A model generated the notes under the pieces. It was not told where the DNA came from. It ran no database searches and worked only from the letters and a program-made list of their open reading frames with translations. This document shows, piece by piece, positions 71-4,670 of a DNA stretch of 64,000 nucleotides. The stretch comes from Candidatus Phelpsiimicrobium noxiivivens. Its GTDB lineage: Bacteria > Omnitrophota > Gorgyraeia > Velamenicoccales > Velamenicoccaceae. The position numbers and the translations under genes are program-made. Numbering within the stretch: position 1 is the stretch's first letter; each line of letters begins with the position of its first letter. The stretch is taken from NCBI GenBank assembly GCA_001873995.1, contig MNVR01000011.1, positions 1-64,000 of the forward strand, given 5' to 3'.

Positions 71-460
71 TGGCTCCCCCCGGAAGACTCGAACTTCCGA
101 CCTGGTGGTTACAAGCGACCCGAAATTACTTTCGGACTTGGACTATATCATTGCCTTAGGTTTACACCTTTAGGCAGCAGGTGCATAGTCTCTGAACCTT
201 CCCTGATAGAAGTACCCAAAAAATGAACCTCTGTTTTCAGGGTGCGGCTGCTGATTACCCTCGTCTTTACGTTTGGGCTTCCAGCAATTCTCCTGCTGTT
301 TCAACTCCGGTTTCCCGGAGAAGCTGCCACATTAACTCCGTGTTCTAAGCGGCAGTCGGATTTCTCTCTAATAGTTCGAAATCCTTTGTGCCAGAACTCG
401 GAGTCAATTCGCCTTTGGCGAATTGACAGCCACTCGCTCTACCAGCTGAGCTAGGGGGGA
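71..460 (-). tRNA. tRNA-Asn(GUU), split by a group I intron
   Basis: Read on the minus strand, the 5' exon is 460-426 and the 3' exon is 111-71. Joined, they give a full cloverleaf. The acceptor TCCCCCC pairs with GGGGGGA. The D stem is GCTC/GAGC, and the anticodon loop CTGTTAA carries anticodon GTT. The T arm is GGAAG/CTTCC around TTCGAGT. The discriminator is G73 and CCA is encoded. U1-A72, G73 and the GGCTGTTAACC anticodon arm match bacterial tRNA-Asn as I know it from E. coli and Bacillus. One flaw is an A27-C43 mismatch at the base of the anticodon stem. The exons are interrupted between anticodon positions 35 and 36. Splicing is inferred, not shown. Confidence 0.92.
112..425 (-). other. 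Group I intron in tRNA-Asn, no homing endonuclease gene
   Basis: This 314-nt insert ends in G (position 112) and follows a U in the 5' exon, as group I introns do. On the minus strand the core elements appear in order: P (GAATTGCTGG, about 281-290), Q (TAATCAGCAGCC, 246-257), R (GTTCAGAGACTA, about 186-197) and S (ATATAGTCC, 140-148). R and S can form P7 and P/Q can form P4. Hairpins suited to P2 (GGATTTC/GAAATCC), P8 (TGCCT/AGGCA) and P9 (CCGAAA/TTTCGG) are also present. The size and the R/S consensus suggest the small tRNA-intron class (IC3-like). No LAGLIDADG or other endonuclease reading frame fits inside, so it cannot be self-mobile by homing. Confidence 0.9.
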
Positions 461-1717: not shown

Positions 1718-3019
1718 ATGAAATATTGCAGAGTGATCCCTTTTTTTGCAGCCGCGCTATTTTTTTTATCCTCCACAAGTTTTTCCAAAGAGATAGAGCC
1801 TTTCAGCGGATTCAAAAATAATGACAGGGTCCTTATCTTAGCGCCGCATCCGGATGATGAGGCCATCGGCACGGCAGGCGCTATCCTTGAGGCAATGAAA
1901 TTAAAACTTCCAGTAAGAATAGTTTATTTTACTTACGGAGATAGCAACGAACCTGCTTTTATAGTGTATGAAAAACGGATCGTTTTTAAGAAAAAGGCCT
2001 TTGTTAATTTAGGCGAGGTCCGGCGTAAAGAATCCACAAATGCAATGAAATTTTTAGGGTTAAAGGAAAAGAACCTTATTTTTTTGGGTTATCCTGATTT
2101 TGGAACGATGCAGATATTTACGAAATACTGGGATGCAAAAAAGCCTTACAAAGGTATGTTTACGCGCGTTACAAGAGTGCCTTATCCTGACGCGCTTTCG
2201 CCAGGCGCTCCTTATGTAGGAGAAAGTATCTTAAAGGATATAGAAAAAGTTATTACGGATTTTAAACCCACAAAGATATTTGTTTCGCATCCGGTAGACG
2301 TTAACCGCGACCACCGCGCCCTTAATCTGTTTTTGCGCGTAGCCCTATGGGATCTGGAGGGCAAGATACAGGAGCCTGAGGTTATCCCTTATCTTGTGCA
2401 TGTGGTGCGCTGGCCGATGCCTCGCGGGTTTCATCCCGAAGTTGCGTTAGGCCCGCCTAAAGAATTAAAAGACTCTAGCGCAGCCTGGTGGCGTCTTGAC
2501 TTAAGCGCGGGCCAGATAGCTAAAAAGAAAAAGGCGATATCGTTTTTCAAGAGCCAGATAGAATACGCGCCGTCATATTTGTATACATTCGTAAGGAAAA
2601 ATGAGCTTTATGGCGACTATCCTGTTATAAGTATAAAAAGTAACGATAGTATGGCGGGAATAGACAAGTTAGGCTACGCGCTAAAAGACGGTTTTTTGCT
2701 GATTAAGCTTGACCTGAAGAGAAAGATAGATGAATATTTCGGGGTATCTATTTTTTTGTTTGGTTATAGCAAGGTAAAAGATTTCGCGCTTATGCCGAAA
2801 ATAAATATCACCATAGGCACGAGGGGTTTGAAGGTGGTGGATAAAACAAAGAGGTTACGAATGCAAGACGTGAAAGCCGCTTTTAAAGGCCGTTCTTTGG
2901 TGCTGAAGGTCCCGCTGTATCTTTTAGGCAATCCGGGCCGTATACTCGCGACAGCAAGGACAAGCGCGAAAGATCTGACGCTTGATGATACCGCGTTACG
3001 CGTTATTGAGCTAAACTAA
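1718..3019 (+). CDS. Exported PIG-L/LmbE-family deacetylase
   Basis: A 433-residue protein with a signal peptide (residues 1-23). The zinc-binding motif APHPDDEAIG lies at residues 42-51, and the second metal/catalytic motif HPVDVNRDH near residue 190. These are the hallmarks of the PIG-L (LmbE) fold, whose members remove acetyl groups from GlcNAc-containing substrates. The catalytic domain spans about residues 35-270. The remaining ~160 residues look like a beta-rich accessory domain, as in some secreted PIG-L proteins. The likely substrate is an envelope or extracellular N-acetyl sugar; this is inferred. It converges with the minus-strand pilin operon, with only 10 bp between the stops. Confidence 0.88.
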   Translation: MKYCRVIPFFAAALFFLSSTSFSKEIEPFSGFKNNDRVLILAPHPDDEAIGTAGAILEAMKLKLPVRIVYFTYGDSNEPAFIVYEKRIVFKKKAFVNLGEVRRKESTNAMKFLGLKEKNLIFLGYPDFGTMQIFTKYWDAKKPYKGMFTRVTRVPYPDALSPGAPYVGESILKDIEKVITDFKPTKIFVSHPVDVNRDHRALNLFLRVALWDLEGKIQEPEVIPYLVHVVRWPMPRGFHPEVALGPPKELKDSSAAWWRLDLSAGQIAKKKKAISFFKSQIEYAPSYLYTFVRKNELYGDYPVISIKSNDSMAGIDKLGYALKDGFLLIKLDLKRKIDEYFGVSIFLFGYSKVKDFALMPKINITIGTRGLKVVDKTKRLRMQDVKAAFKGRSLVLKVPLYLLGNPGRILATARTSAKDLTLDDTALRVIELN

Positions 3020-3029
3020 GTTATTTAGT

Positions 3030-4670
3030 TCAGCCCAGATCGCTCCACCAGGCAATGCGTTGGGCTTCCACGGCCCATGGAGTAAAAGGCGGAAGGTTGG
3101 CAGGGTCATTAAAAGCAGTATTATAAGCCCAGATGCGGTTGGGCGCCGTATATTGCGGGTTACCGTATGTCCAGCCGCCGTTCGCCACGGAACTATTCCA
3201 TAAAGCTACAAAAGATCCCTTTATAGTCAGGTTCCTTCCGGTCCAATTTTCATGGAGCCGCGGATAGTTTTCAAGGCCTCCGTTATAATTGCCGGTTGTA
3301 GTGTTGTCTATTCCAGCGACAAAAGCGCTGTTGAACGTTGTAGCAGTGGCCGGCCTTGAACTTAAACTGCTTGTGCTGTTCGTGTCGTTCCAGTTATTTG
3401 AGAGAAGATTGAGAGAATCCGCGATTATGCTTGTAGGTTGTTCGCTGACAGTGTTATAGTCGCCCTTTACATACACAGGGTCATTGGAGACTACTGTTAA
3501 CCCTCCCGCGCGCGCGATCTCGCTGCCGTTAATGAGTTTGATGCCGGGTTCCTGGATGCCGGATATGTCGTTGCGCGTGGCGTATAACAGGCCGTTATCT
3601 GGCATATTATTAGGGCATGAGCCCGCGCCGCATGTTCCGGTTTTGCCTGCCAGCTTGTTTAAGTCCAGCGTTGTCATTTTAATAAATTTGCCTTCGCGGT
3701 TACTATAAAAAGATGATGTGGTTGTGGCTATTGTCCCTGTGGGATAGTCTGTGCCTTCTACCAGAGCTGTGCCGCCTTTATAAATAATATTATTTACGAC
3801 GCTGACATTGGCTTGAGTAGCGTAGTAGCCGCCTGGCTGGATGGAACCGACAGCGGGCGCCGTCAATCGCGTCACTCCGTGAACAGAACTTTGCACTGTT
3901 CCTTTCCAGCGTGTTGTGGAGTCTGTGGGCCACGTTGGCGAGGAGCTGTCCAGGCCGTCCATATTGGCAAATGTGGGTGGGCCTCCTTGATCAATGCGTA
4001 TTGAAACCGTTCCTGCGGGCGGGCCAGACGCGTCTTTTCTTTTGTTAAATATATCGCCAGCGGAATGCAGGTATGTTGAATCAACGGTAAGTGTGTTGCC
4101 TGATGAATCCATGTAGATGTCCTGGTTGGAGTGGATGCGGCCTGTAATTGTCATATTGGGGCCTGGCAGCATCTCAAGGTCTTGATCGTAAAAGACAGCG
4201 TGTTGAAAGGTAGGGATGAGCCGCCTGGCTATTATCTGGTGTACTGTGATGATTATAGAACTATTTTGAGGATGAGTCGCTGTTGAGATAACTTCATAGT
4301 TTGCCGCGTATATATTAGTGCTTCCTTCAACTATGAGCCTGTCAGCTGCTTCTAGGCGTGTTATGGTAGTATCCACTGTGGTGTTCCCAAAAGTAGTGAA
4401 TATGGTAGTTACGTTATAAGTGGCGATGTTTGACGGTATTACAAAATTAGCTACTGCCGAGCTAAAGGCTGATATGGCGTATTCGTTTGCTCCTTCAGCC
4501 ATGTAGAAGGCCTGGGCTGTCAGCTGATCGCGTTCGGTGATACCTTTTTCGGATATGGCCTTGGTCCATAGGCCTGCTGAATAGACCAGGAGGACTAATA
4601 TGACGATGTAGGATAATATCAGGGCCTGGCCTTTTTTATTTGTTTTACGCGCTTGACGTGGTTTACTCAT
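3030..4670 (-). CDS. PilX-like minor pilin / pseudopilin-associated protein
   Basis: A 546-residue protein. Its N terminus has a charged leader, then GQALILSYIVILVLL, a hydrophobic helix at residues 14-33. Next comes a PilX-like LTAQAFYMAEGANEYAI segment, where the AEGA-type motif follows the helix. The large Thr/Ser/Asn-rich remainder is predicted beta-rich and surface-exposed. The classic prepilin cleavage Glu at +5 is missing; a Gln-Ala-Leu pattern replaces it, as in PilX-type proteins. It is the last gene of a three-gene operon with pilW- and pilV-like genes (gap of 2 bp). A probable role is in the tip complex of a type IV pilus or type II secretion pseudopilus. The core pilus genes are not in the window. 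Confidence 0.72.
   Translation of the reverse strand: MSKPRQARKTNKKGQALILSYIVILVLLVYSAGLWTKAISEKGITERDQLTAQAFYMAEGANEYAISAFSSAVANFVIPSNIATYNVTTIFTTFGNTTVDTTITRLEAADRLIVEGSTNIYAANYEVISTATHPQNSSIIITVHQIIARRLIPTFQHAVFYDQDLEMLPGPNMTITGRIHSNQDIYMDSSGNTLTVDSTYLHSAGDIFNKRKDASGPPAGTVSIRIDQGGPPTFANMDGLDSSSPTWPTDSTTRWKGTVQSSVHGVTRLTAPAVGSIQPGGYYATQANVSVVNNIIYKGGTALVEGTDYPTGTIATTTSSFYSNREGKFIKMTTLDLNKLAGKTGTCGAGSCPNNMPDNGLLYATRNDISGIQEPGIKLINGSEIARAGGLTVVSNDPVYVKGDYNTVSEQPTSIIADSLNLLSNNWNDTNSTSSLSSRPATATTFNSAFVAGIDNTTTGNYNGGLENYPRLHENWTGRNLTIKGSFVALWNSSVANGGWTYGNPQYTAPNRIWAYNTAFNDPANLPPFTPWAVEAQRIAWWSDLG

Follow-up and report, generated by a model that had tools for sequence, protein, structure and literature searches.

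The window analyzed here is a 64,000-nucleotide stretch, positions 1 to 64,000 of contig MNVR01000011.1 of Candidatus Phelpsiimicrobium noxiivivens (Omnitrophota; class Gorgyraeia). Near its start, read on the minus strand from position 460 to 71, TCCCCCCTAGCTCAGCTGGTAGAGCGAGTGGCTGT is followed by 314 nt and then by TAACCACCAGGTCGGAAGTTCGAGTCTTCCGGGGGGAGCCA, together forming a split tRNA-Asn(GUU) gene. The 5' exon (426 to 460, minus strand) comprises the acceptor 5' strand, the D arm, the anticodon 5' stem, and C32, U33, G34, and U35; the 3' exon (71 to 111, minus strand) supplies U36, A37, A38, the anticodon 3' stem, the variable loop, the T arm, the acceptor 3' strand, G73, and an encoded CCA. 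When the exons are joined, ARAGORN reports tRNA-Asn(gtt) of the standard 76 nt, with perfect acceptor, D, and T arms. The initial annotation had placed a minus-strand tRNA-Asn(GUU) at these coordinates and predicted a spliced 76-nt product, in agreement with the ARAGORN result; its insertion point between anticodon positions 35 and 36 is exact, as the cut follows U35. Insertion in the anticodon loop and restoration of a standard tRNA upon joining are both features of bacterial tRNA group I introns. The 5' half of tRNA-Asn, intact or split, is the same in 76 of 147 genomes of the class.

In standard mode, ARAGORN calls no tRNA from the unjoined gene or anywhere else in the window. Its intron mode proposes a tRNA-Pro(cgg) with a 306-nt intron, a call that we rejected because it breaks both the terminal-G rule and the guide rule of group I introns. 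The split gene lies 70 nt from the contig end. Within the class, 16/40 split tRNA-Asn introns are found no more than 700 nt from a contig end versus 3.5 expected if positions were uniform; for tRNA-fMet introns, the corresponding figures are 2/27 and 2.0. Integrated elements or other strain-variable DNA beside tRNA-Asn might break assemblies at split loci.

The insert (112 to 425, minus strand) is a group I intron of 314 nt, the length originally given, with U35 just before it and the conserved omega-G at position 112. The Rfam covariance model RF00028 matches positions 343 to 119 over its full length (model positions 1 to 253) with 75.4 bits (E = 2.4e-17), above the gathering score of 50 bits; the covariance search thus bears out the group I assignment made from the sequence alone. 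All core elements lie on the minus strand. The internal guide sequence GCAGC (323 to 327) pairs with GCUGU of the 5' exon and places the canonical U.G pair of P1 at the splice site; indeed, a local fold of the exon tail, P1 loop, and guide forms P1. The P2 hairpin (CUCCGG-GAAA-CCGGAG, 305 to 320) covaries across 94 introns, as do the pairs between the P3 5' strand (CAGCAGG, 292 to 298) and its 3' partner (CCUGCUG, 175 to 181). Covariation also supports the P4-P5 domain (248 to 287; P4 UUGCUG/CAGCAG, P5 GCCC...GGGU) and, together with the RF00028 match, the P6 domain (199 to 247) and the P9 hairpin (CCGAAA-GUAA-UUUCGG, 120 to 135). In the P8 hairpin (154 to 174), four pairs are formed in 93/93 introns, with compensatory changes at three of them. 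The guanosine-binding helix P7 joins GACUA (186 to 190) to UAGUC (141 to 145), and P7 and P3 form the pseudoknot characteristic of group I introns. The P, Q, R, and S elements listed in the initial annotation correspond to the P4-P5 domain (P and Q) and the 5' and 3' strands of P7 (R and S).

Across the 94-sequence alignment, 94% of cells in P2, P3, P4, P5, P6, P8, and P9 are paired, and compensatory changes occur at 31 of the 37 helix pairs from P2 to P9 without P7. When partner strands were slid by one to three columns as a control, 32 to 45% of cells were paired and only 4 to 10 pairs had compensatory changes. P7 itself is nearly invariant (469/470 cells paired). The splice sites are conserved: all 100 distinct tRNA-Asn introns compared have U at position -1, a 3' exon starting with UAA, and G at the intron 3' end, the last having been a requirement of the intron finder for the named-genome set. 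Nearly every homologous intron has a GCAGC-type guide, hardly varying in sequence, just before P2. In 27 of 99 introns, a candidate P10 sequence, GUUA, with the potential to pair with the 3' exon, lies flush against the guide; that of the window intron is displaced by a few bases and may be tied up in a hairpin of the P1 loop. With the same site, the GCAGC guide, and a homologous core, the window intron belongs to a family of introns inserted between positions 35 and 36 of tRNA-Asn.

The P1 loop (L1) of tRNA-Asn introns is modular. In the window intron (328 to 425, minus strand), it holds an insert of about 91 nt, composed of a short hairpin beside the 5' splice site and a long hairpin, which by local folding leaves P1 undisturbed. 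This insert is 71 to 77% identical to the L1 of three Omnitrophota introns (G111, G133, and L220). The core of the intron in G003, a genome of the same family, is 93% identical to that of the window intron, yet its L1 measures 8 nt versus 98 nt. A further core (G004) is 83% identical, and these cores fall into one clade (SH-aLRT 99). The whole insert was considered as a dispersed repeat and rejected, being single copy in its own genome; only a 21-nt piece of its hairpin matches elsewhere (G018:C8:2910 and G004:C6:429863). Because this piece recurs, palindromic repeats may insert in the L1 of tRNA-Asn introns. GC-rich palindromes (GCGAGC...GCGAGC) also lie beside the 5' splice site in several ORF-less introns (e.g., G005, L257, and G099).

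Larger introns of the family carry a gene in the same loop. Every intron longer than 450 nt (31/31, among 100 distinct members) contains an HNH ORF in L1, all of one predicted endonuclease family. These ORFs are conserved and mostly open, and their hosts comprise Omnitrophota, Nitrospirota, Patescibacteria, Margulisbacteria, and deltaproteobacterial genomes. They match HNH families of PHROGs (E = 2.9e-29); the match to Pfam HNH falls below threshold. The window intron contains no long ORF, and the HNH ORF that sits at this position in its homologues is absent from its L1. A possible HNH remnant there was dismissed, as most of the tblastn match falls within the ribozyme core, into which the C-terminal end of the ORF extends in G004. 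The statement in the initial annotation that the insert lacks an endonuclease gene is thus correct for the window copy but does not extend to the family; given the ORF in all of the longer introns, the window copy appears to be a member without an ORF in a possibly mobile family. In a 347-nt tRNA-Asn intron from a Nitrospirales chromosome (L258), the end of L1 resembles an HNH C-terminus (YCADCHRRL) and appears coding-like, likely a remnant left after deletion of the endonuclease gene.

The genome assembly consists of 39 contigs (1.56 Mb) and is 90.86% complete. No second tRNA-Asn is present among its 41 other tRNAs (RF00005), and pattern searches retrieved none either. An intact tRNA-Asn(GUU) elsewhere in the genome had been named at the outset as the observation that would count against the intron; none was found among these tRNAs, with the reservation that, at 91% completeness, a second tRNA-Asn could be missing from the assembly. 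Of the 147 genomes of the class, 40 contain a complete tRNA-Asn split at this very position and 47 an intact tRNA-Asn (by pattern searches). The two forms occur together in one genome versus 12.8 expected by chance (P = 2.5e-7), and that genome (G045) is 4% contaminated. Four intact-pattern matches were set aside by hand: the G120 match comes from that genome's own intron, whose first bases are TAA, and the matches to the second pattern in G004, G106, and G111 are unlike tRNA-Asn. Three further genomes have the tRNA-Asn 5' half at a truncated contig. A relative assembled as a single contig of 1.55 Mb (G034) has the split tRNA-Asn and 39 other tRNA hits, none of them Asn according to ARAGORN. 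In the same relative, tRNA-Ile(GAU) was not called and ARAGORN rejected a 49-bit tRNA hit at position 1376257; a further tRNA that is interrupted or otherwise unusual may be hidden there. Taken together, a genome that is about 91% complete, the mutual exclusivity of split and intact genes, and a single-contig relative with only the split form argue strongly that asparagine decoding in this organism would depend on splicing of the intron.

Beyond the class, GTDB r220 genomes were scanned for the tRNA-Asn 5' half not followed by U36, which yielded at least 117 stretches. About 70 of the 80 matches listed represent a complete split gene with a terminal G. Among the matches listed are Omnitrophota, Nitrospirota, Betaproteobacteria (Pseudomonadota), Deltaproteobacteria (several of them Myxococcota per NCBI), Clostridia/Lachnospiraceae (Bacillota), several Patescibacteria, Margulisbacteria, and one cyanobacterial bin; tRNA-Asn thus appears to be split at the same site in roughly nine phyla among these matches. 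RF00028 reached its gathering score in 16 of 20 loci tested. The Clostridia and cyanobacterial introns gave no RF00028 hit even at E = 0.01 and are therefore counted with caution, although they align with the family and visual inspection reveals an omega-G, a guide, and the P7 motif. Two short gammaproteobacterial hits (L211 and L234) were discarded; the 140-nt insert of L234 ends in T and has no group I match. Nearly all loci come from metagenome bins, and calls for a single phylum may therefore reflect binning errors; L265 and L258 derive from chromosome-level assemblies. As a possible example of such an error, L226, titled Planctomycetales, has the tRNA of G077 of the Omnitrophota class. 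One Nitrospira locus (L196, CG24E) has two tRNA-Asn 5' halves on the same strand, separated by 1.6 kb and both leading into intron-like sequence, possibly a tandem duplication of the split gene.

Other RNAs of the class also host group I introns. An intron between U33 and C34 of initiator tRNA-fMet is present in 27 genomes (e.g., L109 and L125), and many of these introns contain an ORF matching PDDEXK_5 and PDB entry 2OST (I-Ssp6803I; E = 2.7e-50). Group I introns were additionally found in tRNA-Lys(UUU) (n = 7; L053, L061, L075, L082, L104, L127, and L131), tRNA-Tyr(GUA) (n = 6; L051, L052, L057, L058, L071, and L087), tRNA-Arg(UCU) (n = 2; L134 and L145), and 23S rRNA. A second group I intron in the genome of the window intron (G000:C11:5892-6038; L048, about 2700 to 3100) scores a sub-threshold 35.5 bits; it lies upstream of the sarcin-ricin-loop sequence of 23S rRNA and has an apparent intron ORF. 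In a tree of 136 cores, introns cluster by host tRNA, with many weak branches. Because a minimum of only five host changes is needed for five hosts, the introns seem to stay with their own site.

Several other readings of the locus can be weighed against these data. The insert could be a decayed intron in a tRNA-Asn pseudogene, with a functional intact copy in sequence missing from the assembly; the incomplete assembly, the nearby contig end, and the lack of an ORF in the intron would all fit. Such decay is hard to square with a catalytic core in which every helix is intact and P7 is canonical, with exons that form perfect arms and encode CCA, or with a sole-copy status that recurs in about 40 relatives, and we consider it highly improbable. 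An alternative splice register is further from plausible: a loop CUUGUAA, and hence tRNA-Thr(UGU) rather than tRNA-Asn, would result from a 5' exon that stops at G31 or U33, but the U33 end breaks the terminal-G rule, the G31 end breaks the rule of U before the splice site, and both leave the conserved guide unused. Moreover, the genome already contains an intact tRNA-Thr(UGU), the exons and G73 are as expected for Asn, and UAA opens the 3' exon in 100 of 100 introns compared. Just as little weight falls on removal of the insert by protein machinery of the archaeal bulge-helix-bulge type, or on an insert that is spanned rather than removed. Bulge-helix-bulge introns of tRNAs are typically short and are spliced by an archaeal or eukaryotic endonuclease, an enzyme that is not expected in bacteria. 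Nothing was found in favor of this route, and a full-length group I core with covariation speaks against it.

A separate question concerns how the family spread, as opposed to what the intron is. Its distribution could stem from old vertical inheritance followed by many losses, with the HNH ORF as a late passenger, and the tendency of introns of one bacterial group to cluster in the tree (Clostridia, Nitrospirota, and the order of the window genome) agrees with this history. Presence is patchy within single families, however, introns of different phyla interleave (albeit on weak branches), and HNH ORFs have stayed conserved and mostly open across five groups of hosts. We therefore regard purely vertical descent as unlikely, while granting it appreciably more weight than the alternatives for the locus itself.

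Our preferred reading, to which we assign a probability of roughly 93%, is that the window intron belongs to a widespread family of group I introns specific to this site of tRNA-Asn, has no ORF, and has to be spliced out before asparagine can be decoded. From the sequence, we infer two-step, guanosine-initiated splicing. In the precursor tRNA, the guide GCAGC would pair with the GCUGU that closes the 5' exon (U35.G), and an external guanosine bound in P7 would attack after U35. The freed 5' exon would in turn attack behind the intron's terminal G and be joined to U36, yielding mature tRNA-Asn; on this basis, the split gene is predicted to be essential for asparagine decoding. The family, confined to one position of tRNA-Asn, is proposed to spread by homing, with the P1-loop ORF supplying the HNH endonuclease, and to shed or swap what that loop contains. 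Because the window copy has a folded 91-nt insert and no ORF, its history was probably one of vertical inheritance, or else of movement that required a trans-acting endonuclease or recombination at the tRNA locus.

Reviews and tool papers mention tRNA-Leu, fMet, Ile, and similar hosts (PMC3984707, PMC4033280, and PMC8450103); tRNAscan-SE 2.0 names fMet and Ile2 (PMC8450103), and the intron-bearing groups given in reviews are cyanobacteria, alpha- and betaproteobacteria, and plastids (PMC4033280). tRNA-Asn receives no discussion in a database paper on group I introns from 2025 (PMC11835236). Circularized CPR genomes have been described as containing tRNAs with hard-to-detect group I introns, the passage giving no tRNA identities, sites, or endonucleases (PMC8172020). 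A 2017 study claimed "group I introns" of 22 to 49 nt in cyanobacterial tRNAs (PMC5733544); these inserts are far too short for a group I core. Our search of the open-access literature retrieved no report of a group I intron in tRNA-Asn, nor in tRNA-Tyr or the Lys(UUU) and Arg(UCU) isoacceptors. The initial annotation's description of the intron as unusual or new thus stands, provisionally, for novelty but not for rarity, as it occurs in about 30% of the sampled class. Group I introns in tRNAs are known and typically belong to subclass IC3; the host tRNA, the breadth of the family, and the HNH pairing are apparently undescribed.

Together with tRNA-Tyr(GUA), tRNA-Lys(UUU), and tRNA-Arg(UCU), tRNA-Asn extends the short list of bacterial tRNA hosts of group I introns, and the HNH association offers a new intron/endonuclease pairing that is open to testing. 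In such bacteria, an essential tRNA would rely on ribozyme catalysis, and splicing could therefore limit or regulate translation. A practical consequence is that a standard tRNA finder misses tRNA-Asn here, which can distort analyses of completeness and codon usage.

Like the known bacterial and plastid introns in tRNA-Leu(UAA), fMet, Ile(CAU), and Arg(CCU), the window intron is a small group I ribozyme in the anticodon loop, with U.G at the 5' splice site, a terminal G, and P1-P9 architecture; unlike them, it resides in tRNA-Asn(GUU), with the cut between positions 35 and 36. The tRNA-fMet intron with the PD-(D/E)XK enzyme I-Ssp6803I (PDB entry 2OST; PF11645) likewise pairs an anticodon-loop site with its own endonuclease, whereas the tRNA-Asn family has an unrelated HNH ORF in its P1 loop and the window copy has none. 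The introns of tmRNA (PMC11915505) offer a further parallel, with a structural-RNA host, few subsites, U at position -1, a terminal G, occurrence in many phyla, and, as in the tRNA-Asn family, mostly no ORF. They differ in their T-loop site and in that their rare ORFs encode LAGLIDADG proteins.
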